A stretch of DNA of 64,000 nt from Prorocentrum cordatum (taxonomy: Eukaryota; Sar; Dinophyceae; Prorocentrales; Prorocentraceae). Below the pieces are notes generated by a model that ran no database searches, was not told the origin of the DNA, and saw only the letters and a program-made list of their open reading frames with translations. The stretch lies in NCBI GenBank assembly GCA_963575745.1, contig CAUYUJ010004335.1:731356-795355 (forward strand), given 5' to 3'. Below, piece by piece: positions 7,874 through 57,878 of this stretch; within the stretch, counting starts at the first letter, position 1, and every line of letters starts with the position of its first letter. The position numbers and the translations under genes are program-made.

Positions 7874-7894
7874 CTTGAGCCAAAATGGCTACGG
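7874..7894 (-). other. DinoSL (spliced leader) relict, LINE-1
   Basis: The minus strand reads CCGTAGCC...GGCTCAAG and matches 21 of the 22 nt of the dinoflagellate spliced leader; the 5'-most variable base (7895) does not fit. No splice donor GT follows, so this is a leader already joined to an mRNA and copied back into DNA, not an SL RNA gene. The LINE-1 ATG follows at once, so the leader was the whole 5' UTR. Confidence 0.95.
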
Positions 7895-42213: not shown

Positions 42214-42235
42214 CTTGAGCCAAAATGGCTACGGA
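42214..42235 (-). other. DinoSL relict, LINE-2 (22 of 22)
   Basis: A complete spliced-leader match, including the variable first base (T). It is followed on the minus strand by TTGGAACC rather than a splice donor, and preceded with no gap by (ATC)n. Confidence 0.97.
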
Positions 42236-48249: not shown

Positions 48250-48271
48250 ATTGAGCCAAAATGGCCACGGA
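48250..48271 (-). other. DinoSL relict, LINE-3 (20 of 22)
   Basis: Two differences from the leader: GTAGCC reads GTGGCC, and the last base is T instead of G. The variable first base is T. It is directly preceded by (ATC)n on the minus strand, like LINE-2. Confidence 0.9.
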
Positions 48272-54238: not shown

Positions 54239-55089
54239 TTAAAGTTGAGGCGTACCAGCGGTGCCGCATCGCAGTGGATCTCGCCCCTTGGAGCGGATGG
54301 CGCGCCAGCGTAGCTGCGGGTACTTCTGCGACAAAAGCAGATGCAGCTTCTTGCGCTGGATCTCCGCGCGGATCTGCCTCGGCGACTTGTCGGGGTTGAC
54401 GCAGAAGTCGGCGTGGACGCCGTTGGTGTCGACGGTGTGGAAGCGCTGCCATCGGCCCGCGGCGCCCCGAAGAGCACGTTGAAGAGCGAGCGCCCGTGGG
54501 ATGGCCACCTCCCTGTTGCCCTTGACCTGGAGGATGAAGCGCCGCGCGGGCTCGTCTCCATGGAGTTCGACACGGTCGTGTTGGAGTCCAGCAGCACCGA
54601 TCCACTCCTGCAGGCCGTTGAGGACGGCATTGGGGGCAACGAGCCACTGTGAGCCAATGGCGAACAGGGTAGCGTCTGGCGATCTGCCCCACTCGGCAAG
54701 CCTGGAAAGATCGGCGACGGGGGCCTGCACCTCGGCGAGGGCGATCGCGCCGCGCAGCTTGCCGATCTGAGCCCACCTCCTGCGCTGATCCTCGGGCTGC
54801 TTGTCCTGCTCTCGCTTGGTGCGGGCCAACTGGTCCTTAAGGCAGTCCACGCGGCGTTCAGTCTGAAGGACTTGTTGTTGGAGAAGCCGGCGGGAGCTGT
54901 CGCGGGACTGTTCCAGTAGGATGTCGGCCTGCTGCTTCAAAGTGGCGGCGGCGTGGGAGATCTGCTGCTGCGTGAGATTCTGGGGGGCGCTGCCCAGGTC
55001 GTCTGGAAGTCCAGGGAGTCGAACGGGAGCACCATCAGCAGCTGGATTGGCAGACGCTTGCGGAGTCCGTTGGTCTTCTCCTGGTTGTT
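54239..55089 (-). pseudogene. LINE-4 ORF1, second part
   Basis: From the insertion junction the frame reads QPGEDQRTPQAS, a Gln-rich coiled coil (LLQQQVLQTERRVDCLKDQL) and a C-terminal domain (RRFILQVKGNREVAIP, GRWQRFHTVDTNGVH, NPDKSPRQIRAEIQRKK), stopping at 54239. The DKS/DKN-x-RQ-x-x-x-EI motif is shared with LINE-1. It is in phase with the first part at 57,232-57,850 once the inserted elements are removed, giving 489 residues in all. Confidence 0.8.
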
Positions 55090-55355
55090 AGCCCGCCCCC
55101 CTCCCACACTTTCCTTTTTGCGTTGCGCACGGCCCTGAGGCAAGAGCGAGGTGCAGCGGCACCTCGCCGCGCGGACTGCCACCGGCGCCCCAGCAGGGGC
55201 AGGCAGAAAAAGAGGGTGGGGGGGTGGGACAAGCGGCCCCCCCTGATCCGACCCTGCTGCAGCGGCACAAAGAAGGGAAGGGGAACAAAGGGGAAGAGGA
55301 CAGAACATGCATGGGGCGAGCAGTGCTAACTTTGCTTCACCTTCGCGAATCAGCG
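55088..55355. mobile_element. 268-bp deletion derivative of the recombinase element
   Basis: The left ~113 bp (TTAGCCCGCCCCC...CCACCGGCGCC) and right ~135 bp (ACAAGCGG...GAATCAGCG) are nearly the same as the two ends of the 1.87-kb element beside it; everything between has been lost. It is in the same orientation and joins the larger element with no spacer. A hairpin (CGAGGTGC-AGCG-GCACCTCG) lies at 55,147-55,166, as in the full element. It has no coding capacity of its own and probably needed the recombinase of a larger copy. Confidence 0.88.
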
Positions 55356-57229
55356 TTAGCCCGCCCCCCTCCTACACTTCCCTTTTTGCTTTGCGCGCGG
55401 CCCTGAAGCAAGAGCGAGGTGCAGCGGCACCTCGCCGCGCGGACTGCCACCGGCGCCCAATGCCACTGTAAGGGGCGGTGGCAAGGACACGCTATGACTA
55501 ATTCTCCGGGCCGCTGTCGTCAATGACGCCCTGCGCGAGCTGGCCCGCTGCCGCCTCGTCGCCCGACACATGCGGCCGCGCGGAGGCGAAGGGGCGCCAC
55601 CCACCGCGCGGCAGCATGGCCTCAACGCCGGACGCTGCCAAAACATCCTTGGCGGCGCCACGCCGGATGTCATGGCCGTGCCACTCCTCTGGGCGCGGCG
55701 CCCCCACGGCGGCCAAGTGTCCGCGAAATTCGCGAGTCCACGACGCCGGGGTAAACCCGCCCAACGGCGGACCGGCACTCGCCCGGGCCTGCTCGTCCAG
55801 CAAAGGCAGCCACGTGTGCAGACATAACGCCTCGTCCGTATTGCAAAGGCAAAAGGCAAACGCAGTGCAAAAGTCTTGGCGCTGCTTACGCCGAATGGGA
55901 CCGTAAAGGAAACGATTGCCTGCCACCTGTAGCAGACCCCGCCGATACTGGCGGAACAGCTCCGACGGCATACGCAACAATAAGTTGTACGCCAGCACAG
56001 CTGTGAGACACCACCACACCCGACCTTGCGGAAAGGCGTGCCGCAACAAAGCCTTCATCAACGCTTTGTCCACGCGTTGCCTGGGCTGGCGGGGCGTCCT
56101 GCCTTCCACGGTGCCCAGCCGGACCCCGCGCAAGATGGCATCGCGGTCGCCCTGCCAATGCACGCCTGCCACCTGGTGCGCCATGGCCCAAGCGCTCAGC
56201 CACCCGCGCTGCGTGGCAGCACGCGCGCACACGGCGGCGACCCTACGTATGTGCTGCACACTGCACCCCAGCGGGGGCTCACCGAAAAGCTCAGACGCCC
56301 ACGCAATCATACGCAAATGCGATGCGTACGTCGAGAGCGTGGACGGCACCGTTTTGCACAGGAACCGGTTTTCGACCACTGTCCCCGCTATGCGAAGCAG
56401 ATCGGCACCCTGAGCGCGGGCCTCGACCATGGCCTGCAGCACCTCGCGCGGAGGCGCGCCATCCGGGTGCCTTGCAGAGCACCCTCTGTCCCGGCTCAAC
56501 GCGGTCAACATGTCGGCATTCTCCCTGCCAACAGCTCGGCGGAAACTGTCCAGCACGCTCCAGTACGTGGACCAAGCCTCTGCGGGGCCACGCGCGCACA
56601 CGGCGCCGCCAGGGCTAGCCTGTACCCCGCGGGGAGGAGCGCCGGCAGTGTGCGGACAGCTGCGCGCGCTGCCACTGCCACCTGGCGGAGCGGCGCCGGA
56701 ATGCCCAGCGGGGCCGCCCCCGGCGCCACCAGCGACCCAGCGGGGCCCTGGGGCGACCGGCAAAGAAGCCCGCGGGGCTGAAGCGCCCTGCGGTGCGCCT
56801 TGGGAGACCAGTGCGGCGGCGGCCTGGGGCGCCACGCGGGTCGCCGGCTTTCGCCGAAGGCGCCGGATCCCCGGCGGGGAGCGCAGCGGCGCACACCGAT
56901 GGAGGCGCGGACCCATGCGCCGCGACAAGCGGGCGGGCGACCCTGCTGGCGAGCACGAGCCAATACGGCGGCGGCCTCGAATCCGCCCCCCCGCCCAAGG
57001 GGGGGGGAGGCAGGAGGAGGAAGCGAATGACGACGGCGACCGAGACCCCAATGATGAAGATGCCCCGGCGCCAGCCGCGGCAGGTCCCCACAGCTCCGGC
57101 CCACAAGCGGTCCCCCCTGATCCGACACTGCTGCAGCGGCACAAAGAGGGGAAGGGGAGCAAAGGGGGAGAGGACAGAACATGCATGGGGCGAGCAGTGC
57201 TAACTTTGCTTCACCTTCGTGAATCAGCG
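55356..57229 (-). mobile_element. 1.87-kb tyrosine-recombinase element inserted in LINE-4 ORF1
   Basis: The element begins TTAGCCCG (55,356) and ends GAATCAGCG (57,229). GTT occurs at all three junctions: 55,087-55,089, 55,355-55,357 and 57,229-57,231. It encodes one recombinase-like protein on the minus strand, whose start lies 43 bp from its right end. A hairpin (55,415-55,434) lies near the other end. No RT, RNase H or long terminal repeat is present, so it resembles a Crypton rather than a complete DIRS element, though DIRS-type integration also uses short junction triplets. Confidence 0.82.
55498..57186 (-). CDS. Tyrosine-recombinase-like protein
   Basis: 562 codons. The first ~200 residues are Pro/Gly/Ala/Arg-rich and may be partly untranslated. 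A helical core-binding-like region follows (TVPSTLSTYASHLRMIAWAS, 279-298). The catalytic part shows YNLLLRMPSELFRQY (Arg box, R405), basic RRKQRQDF, WHGHDIRRGAAKDVLAASG (H505-x-x-R508) and GGW (W530). These match the R...HxxR...W order of tyrosine recombinases, which cut and rejoin DNA through a Tyr. The Tyr expected shortly after GGW is not seen; ARPHV (H539) occupies the likely place and could come from a single Tyr-to-His change. The start at 57186 lies in the terminal repeat. The frame is otherwise intact. Confidence 0.72.
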   Translation of the reverse strand: MHVLSSPPLLPFPSLCRCSSVGSGGTACGPELWGPAAAGAGASSSLGSRSPSSFASSSCLPPPWAGGRIRGRRRIGSCSPAGSPARLSRRMGPRLHRCAPLRSPPGIRRLRRKPATRVAPQAAAALVSQGAPQGASAPRASLPVAPGPRWVAGGAGGGPAGHSGAAPPGGSGSARSCPHTAGAPPRGVQASPGGAVCARGPAEAWSTYWSVLDSFRRAVGRENADMLTALSRDRGCSARHPDGAPPREVLQAMVEARAQGADLLRIAGTVVENRFLCKTVPSTLSTYASHLRMIAWASELFGEPPLGCSVQHIRRVAAVCARAATQRGWLSAWAMAHQVAGVHWQGDRDAILRGVRLGTVEGRTPRQPRQRVDKALMKALLRHAFPQGRVWWCLTAVLAYNLLLRMPSELFRQYRRGLLQVAGNRFLYGPIRRKQRQDFCTAFAFCLCNTDEALCLHTWLPLLDEQARASAGPPLGGFTPASWTREFRGHLAAVGAPRPEEWHGHDIRRGAAKDVLAASGVEAMLPRGGWRPFASARPHVSGDEAAAGQLAQGVIDDSGPEN

Positions 57230-57231
57230 TT

Positions 57232-57850
57232 TTGCTTGCGATGGGAAGGTGGGGAACATCTCCAAGTCGCGCGCCATACCCTGCGTGAAACGCTGCTCTC
57301 CGTTATGGCGTTGTTGTTTTTGGTCGGTGCCCTGGATCAGCTTGCTGCAGATGGACGGTTGCTTGTGTATGTGTGCCCGATGAACCTGGGCGGGCAGAGG
57401 ATCGGCCAGATCGCGTAGCACGCTGTCGTGCTGCACCAGAGGAGGCCATGATGGTAAGCGTGTCCGCGGCAGCGGCTGCACGGTGCCCACGACGGCTAAG
57501 TTGTTGGCTGCGGCTGTTGCTGCGCTCCCCGTCGGAGGAGGCGCCCGACATGATGTCGAAGAACTCGCAGTGGGTGCTGGGGCGCTGGGATGACCCTTGC
57601 CACTGACCAGGACCACTTCTGAACCACCACGTGATACAGCACTTACCACTGCGAGGCTCGGAACACCGCTCGACAAGCAGCTCGGAGCGACGCTCGACGA
57701 GCAGATATGGACGATATGGAGGGCCACCTGCCAGGCCAAGAGAATGAGCAGGAACGCGTTTGGGCCGCTGCAAGCCCTTGATTGTGGCAGCGCGCGAAAA
57801 GCCGAGGCTGGTGGGAGCCTACCCCGTGGAGGCAGTGGAGAGGAAACCAT
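57232..57850 (-). pseudogene. LINE-4 ORF1, first part
   Basis: ATG at 57850, six bases after the leader. About 206 residues, Ser/Pro/Ala-rich with hydrophobic LLILLAWQVALHIVHIC near 33-49, ending EMFPTFPSQAK where the inserted element begins; reading on into the element gives a stop at 57,224. The junction codon and the following QPGEDQ of the second part are in phase after removal of 55,090-57,231. No other disabling change was seen in ORF1. Confidence 0.75.
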
Positions 57851-57856
57851 CTTGGC

Positions 57857-57878
57857 CTTGAGCCAAAATGGCTACGGA
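57857..57878 (-). other. DinoSL relict, LINE-4 (22 of 22)
   Basis: Complete leader match including the variable T, followed on the minus strand by GCCAAG and the ORF1 ATG. The (TCC)n tract begins within a few bases on its 5' side. Confidence 0.97.

Follow-up and report, generated by a model that had tools for sequence, protein, structure and literature searches.

Retrotransposons of the Ngaro-like type are defined by split direct repeats (PMC9210276), with the internal repeats placed downstream of the recombinase (PMC4157794), and a terminal GTT has been reported for a DIRS element (PMC9210276). Among dinoflagellates, SymbioDIRS of Symbiodinium has an A-coding-B-A-B layout, a separate recombinase open reading frame (ORF) and a reverse transcriptase (RT) that fits Pfam poorly (PMC5890265). 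Cryptons are defined by the absence of both terminal inverted repeats and long direct repeats; their terminal direct repeats measure 4-6 bp in fungal and stramenopile forms and are lacking in animal ones (PMC3212892). The background literature comprised PMC3212892, PMC5890265, PMC12721341, PMC12220804, PMC2685390, PMC9210276 and PMC4157794. Here we analyze a stretch of 64,000 nucleotides from Prorocentrum cordatum (contig CAUYUJ010004335.1, positions 731,356 to 795,355), hereafter the window, in which ORF1 of a long interspersed nuclear element (LINE) is interrupted by an insert that encodes a tyrosine recombinase. In the literature searched for Cryptons in dinoflagellates or Symbiodinium and for dinoflagellate tyrosine recombinases, which left out bioRxiv preprints altogether and subscription papers for the most part, we saw no description of this family.

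We hold with high confidence that positions 55087-57231 are a single insertion of a DIRS-order split-direct-repeat retrotransposon, arranged A1-ORFs-B1-A2-B2, into the LINE ORF1. This reading draws directly on the repeat order, the contiguity of the blocks in relatives, conserved extra frames, the recombinase fold, the terminal GTT, LINE relatives without the insert and a deletion private to this copy. An earlier note, made from the letters of the window, had read this insert as two Crypton-like elements inserted in tandem, the smaller one a deletion derivative and non-autonomous partner of the larger. The arrangement it described was confirmed. Of its interpretation, the tyrosine recombinase, the shared ends, the empty site and the short GTT core are supported; the tandem pair, the deletion derivative or non-autonomous partner and the Crypton likeness are not. 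The family belongs to a known structural class and is not a new transposon pair.

Organization of the insert

The features of the insert are as follows.

55087 to 57231, genes on the minus strand: whole inserted element, GTT to GTT, very probably one internally deleted split-direct-repeat (Ngaro/DIRS-like) retrotransposon
55087 to 55089, no strand: left outer GTT core
55087 to 55190, minus strand: repeat B2, the 3' end of the element
55191 to 55228, minus strand: spacer between A2 and B2, kept in 17 other aligned A2-B2 blocks and absent from the large part
55229 to 55357, minus strand: repeat A2, which meets B1 at the GTT of the internal junction
55355 to 55357, no strand: internal GTT core
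55355 to 55458, minus strand: repeat B1, from sequence comparison of the left ends
55501 to 56916, minus strand: tyrosine recombinase gene of 472 codons, counted from the ATG at which the family's frame starts
57091 to 57106, no strand: region of the internal deletion junction, where about 3.83 kb of putative gag-like and RT/RNase-H-like frames are missing relative to the relative L016
57103 to 57231, minus strand: repeat A1, the 5' end in gene orientation, 95% identical to 55229-55357
57229 to 57231, no strand: right outer GTT core

Two blocks with common ends, of 268 and 1,874 bp, lie between three GTTs within the LINE ORF1, as the earlier note had observed. Their left ends (55087-55190 and 55355-55458) are identical at 99 of 104 positions, with 5 differences, and their right ends (55229-55357 and 57103-57231) at 123 of 129, with 6 differences. 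These repeats of 104 and 129 nt form the split direct repeats A1 ... B1-A2-B2 of the Ngaro-like layout, and the internal ones sit downstream of the recombinase, where that definition places them. No terminal inverted repeat was found in the element (the best local score was 15.5, while shuffles averaged 12.6 and reached 24.5); the arms flanking GTT matched at 7 of 12 positions at best, a value obtained without a shuffle control.

Derivation of the small block from the large one by simple internal deletion is rejected because the small block has a conserved spacer of its own. In the large block, nothing matches the 36 nt between the small-block ends better than shuffles do: of 200 shuffles, 197 reach the same score or a higher one.

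Relatives in the same genome

Searches were run against the organism's own assembly (4.13 Gb, 21,875 contigs). The small block gave 55 matches, with the best 40 of 127 candidates scored, and 20 loci were taken from these matches, 19 of them as 9.9-kb stretches and the other as a 3.1-kb stretch. The left-right-left-recombinase order recurs at nine of them, mostly as one contiguous alignment, a proportion biased towards the small block by which the loci were chosen; at one (L026) a 2.2-kb insert interrupts the order. Eight further loci are solo A2-B2 blocks (L018, L019, L021, L023, L029-L032), and the last three have the right end only, one of them together with recombinase sequence. Positions 55087-57106, which comprise the small block, the internal junction and the recombinase gene, align with L016 in a single block (91% over 2,035 columns), and the alignment resumes at the right end 3.83 kb later. 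End to end, the fullest relatives measure 5,983 bp (L016) and 6,357 bp (L017), and A1 is the terminal repeat of both; the two are among the nine loci with the recurring order. In gene orientation they carry A1, then the gag-like, RT-like and recombinase frames, then B1, A2 and B2. What had been taken for a separate small element forms the A2-B2 end of one retrotransposon.

A less biased sample came from a search of this genome at the protein level, which gave 98 matches with the best 90 of 103,158 candidates scored. Twelve contigs, including that of the window, matched at 77% identity or more; one (C4299) was dropped, its matches ending before the recombinase C-terminus. The A2-B2 block precedes B1 in nine of the remaining 11 contigs and is missing from two, C3617 and C8791, where B1 stands directly against unrelated flank (L071, C3617:51120-51690; L072, C8791:463430-464000). 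The block is therefore usual but sometimes absent, and solo A2-B2 blocks together with copies lacking the block show that the modules can separate.

It could be argued from these separate modules that the locus is after all a recombinase-only, Crypton-like DNA transposon with its non-autonomous deletion derivative, side by side at one GTT. GTT bounds both blocks, small blocks stand alone at eight of 20 loci, two copies with recombinase sequence have no small block beside it, and non-autonomous Cryptons exist (PMC3212892). Against this, nine other loci repeat the pair with its order unchanged, the small block carries a conserved spacer missing from the large one, and the fullest relatives contain conserved gag-like and RT/RNase-H-like frames; moreover, fungal Cryptons are described without long direct repeats (PMC3212892). 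We regard this explanation as very improbable.

Two side observations concern solo blocks. The same-flank solo A2-B2 insertion is found on four contigs (L032, L063, L064 and L065), which resembles segmental duplication or redundant assembly. L059 and L060 are solo blocks at different sites with similarly shortened middles, B2 running almost directly into A2, and this type is perhaps a small mobile derivative. Scans of viral and prokaryote contigs gave no confirmed relative of the recombinase family, and one end pattern was unmatched.

Coding capacity of fuller copies

Three frames of 536, 281 and 467 codons, all on the minus strand, lie in the part of L017 that the window copy lacks. The 467-codon frame (L017 4044-5444, minus strand) contains an FDD motif and RNase-H-like motifs, and it matches L016, L025 and L028 at 71-88%. 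At the level of motifs, we interpret the frames of the fullest relatives as probably gag-like and RT/RNase-H-like. Some details limit this assignment: the FDD region is unaligned in L016 and L025, FDD is found in two of the four covering copies, and L025 is broken. Pfam and NCBIfam did not recognize the 467-codon frame. A Pfam search of eight frames gave no match at all, and with that no methyltransferase and no DDE protein, although it also missed the RT-like frame. Separately, the RT-like frame had one weak sequence match in PDB (9e78 chain 2Q, 'DMIP10', E 0.0099). The window copy lacks both the gag-like and the RT/RNase-H-like frames, which were deleted from the large part.

Insertion site

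The interrupted LINE ORF1 flanks the insert.

54242 to 55086, minus strand: 3' part of the LINE ORF1
57232 to 57850, minus strand: 5' part of the LINE ORF1, its ATG 6 nt after a spliced-leader-like 21-mer (57857-57877)

When 55089 is joined to 57232 with one GTT kept, an open frame on the minus strand spans 496 codons between stops and 489 from the first ATG, the latter in agreement with the earlier note. None of 2,000 base shuffles stayed open for 489 codons, and seven of 2,000 did so for the 206-codon 5' part alone. Because the removed length (2,142) and the length of the GTT are each divisible by 3, an open frame does not in itself prove a GTT duplication. A protein search with the joined LINE ORF1 gave no match, and the question was settled by a DNA search of the same genome with the joined flanks. 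It returned 16 matches. Two were the halves that flank the insert itself, and of the remaining 14, 10 span the junction without the insert. The natural empty site that had been proposed is thus real, with L047 aligned poorly at the core and L038 carrying 3-nt indels near it. For the insertion at L023, an empty-site search found no match spanning the site.

None of the 10 spanning relatives has an insertion at the core. The closest of them, L042 (92% over 168 bp), reads GGCT-GTT-CTGC where the window reads GGTT-GTT-TTGC; the core of the others is GGT in six, while the remaining three have GTC, GAT and a poor fit. Outer right ends were tallied by hand from printed boundaries plus the window copy, leaving out internal junctions in which a right end abuts a left end and counting L063-L065, which have the flanks of L032, once. 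GTT is exact in 18 of these 24 distinct right ends. A short GTT core for insertion is supported by the end comparisons and the LINE relatives. Directly after the right GTT, 19 of the 24 right ends have T, and nine of the 10 insert-free LINE relatives have C at that position; the T may be a matter of target choice or may come with the element.

A GTT pair at one site, with no insertion at the core of the LINE relatives, would also be expected if a DDE-type integrase had duplicated 3 bp of the target. The internal junction of A2 and B1 retains GTT, as do the 18 right ends, so GTT is part of the joining site of the element. The element also encodes a tyrosine recombinase, and Pfam, which misses the RT-like frame too, recognized no DDE protein in the eight frames. 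We consider a DDE-made duplication highly doubtful.

The 21-mer of the dinoflagellate spliced leader occurs without mismatch at 7874-7894, 42214-42234 and 57857-57877, all on the minus strand, and with 2 mismatches at 48250-48270. The three perfect occurrences, along with the size of the genome, are the grounds for calling the genome dinoflagellate-type. At 7874 an ATG directly follows the 21-mer. The LINE with the interrupted ORF1 may have descended from a trans-spliced transcript.

The recombinase and the state of the window copy

The recombinase-like gene of the earlier note encodes a tyrosine recombinase by fold, the closest solved structures in a Foldseek search being P1 Cre. The assignment is made on the fold search. 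Profile comparison with a set of seven bacterial and phage recombinases was weak, with E values of 0.12 and 0.06, against 0.08 for the reversed control and 0.29-0.92 for ten column shuffles. Against Cre alone, the score was 31.8 (E 0.002, probability 13.9%); the best of 20 shuffles scored 24.4 and the reversed control 14.2. The protein had no Pfam match, and the only well-supported pairing in a tree of 10 rows was that of the window protein with P0001. Its frame is open, and Arg, Lys, His-x-x-Arg and Trp are retained. His stands in place of the catalytic Tyr; of the 11 further family proteins with in-frame sequence at this site, 10 have the Tyr.

The window recombinase departs from the family at 19 of 158 conserved sites, and the end repeats diverge at 11 of 233 sites. 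Together with the loss of Tyr, these values indicate a decayed copy, and the window copy is most likely dead. Against decay, three other members depart nearly as often (14/152, 15/154 and 15/153), and P0010, a distant member, departs at 55/176.

The intact recombinase frame might instead suggest a separate non-autonomous subfamily, in which recombinase-only copies are copied in trans by full-length elements, and L035 (contig C4299) and C8791 likewise have recombinase sequence beside A1 with no RT between. These two are broken elsewhere, L035 at window position 56895 and C8791 within the N-terminal part of the recombinase. The window's own deletion junction has no second copy among 39 matches (39 of 39 candidates scored) and so is private to this copy within the assembly. 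As the catalytic Tyr is also lost, we see little chance that such a subfamily exists.

Proposed history of the element

A single retrotransposon insertion would proceed by steps that follow the DIRS model, through circular complementary DNA (cDNA). Reverse transcription of the full-length RNA would be followed by closure of the cDNA as a circle, which the split repeats would allow, with the internal CAGC-GTT-AGCC as the junction of its ends. The tyrosine recombinase would then recombine the GTT of the circle with a target GTT, leaving GTT on both sides. Loss of gag and RT could have come before or after insertion; the end repeats have diverged and the catalytic Tyr has changed to His. Solo A2-B2 blocks and block-less copies may have arisen by homologous recombination between repeats, or by action of the recombinase on two of the three GTTs.

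The latter route could be taken further, to a modular element whose three GTTs bound an A2-B2 block and a B1-recombinase-RT-gag-A1 unit, either of which the recombinase excises or inserts. We think this unlikely, though less so than the rivals above. If true, the eight solo loci and two block-less copies would be DNA-level products of the recombinase, not of homologous recombination, and a split-direct-repeat retrotransposon would pass through a Crypton-like cycle as DNA in addition to its RNA cycle. The presence within one genome of fuller copies, solo end blocks, copies lacking the block and ten insert-free relatives of the target makes this a worked case, and the three copy types make module loss in split-direct-repeat elements testable. 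Since neither the recombinase nor the RT-like protein matches Pfam, annotation based on Pfam would miss the family.

Comparison with known systems

Crypton identity is rejected on the long split direct repeats and on the gag-like and RT-like frames, assigned by motif, in L016 and L017. Cryptons share with this family a tyrosine recombinase, a short terminal direct repeat (in fungal and stramenopile forms) and known non-autonomous derivatives. They are recombinase-only elements without RT or long direct repeats, whereas split repeats of 104 and 129 nt are found here, and the 3-bp GTT compares with 4-6 bp in the fungal and stramenopile forms. P1 Cre, which works on a 34-bp lox site, resembles the recombinase in its GHxxRxGAA..GGW motif and Trp-Tyr spacing as well as in structure, but it is a phage enzyme.

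Ngaro-like, VIPER and PAT elements have the same split direct repeats, beginning with A1 (5') and ending with B1-A2-B2 (3'). The Ngaro-like layout goes with the absence of a methyltransferase domain; Pfam recognized none here, but it misses the RT-like frame too. This family differs from them in its RT-like and recombinase proteins without Pfam matches and its dinoflagellate-type genome, and the window copy differs in its lack of gag and RT; the likeness drawn here is one of layout. SymbioDIRS shares the A-coding-B-A-B layout in a dinoflagellate, a separate recombinase ORF and an RT poorly matched by Pfam; SymbioDIRS-Dnmt3 (PMC5890265) has a cytosine methyltransferase and a Pfam-named recombinase, neither of which was recognized in the present family.
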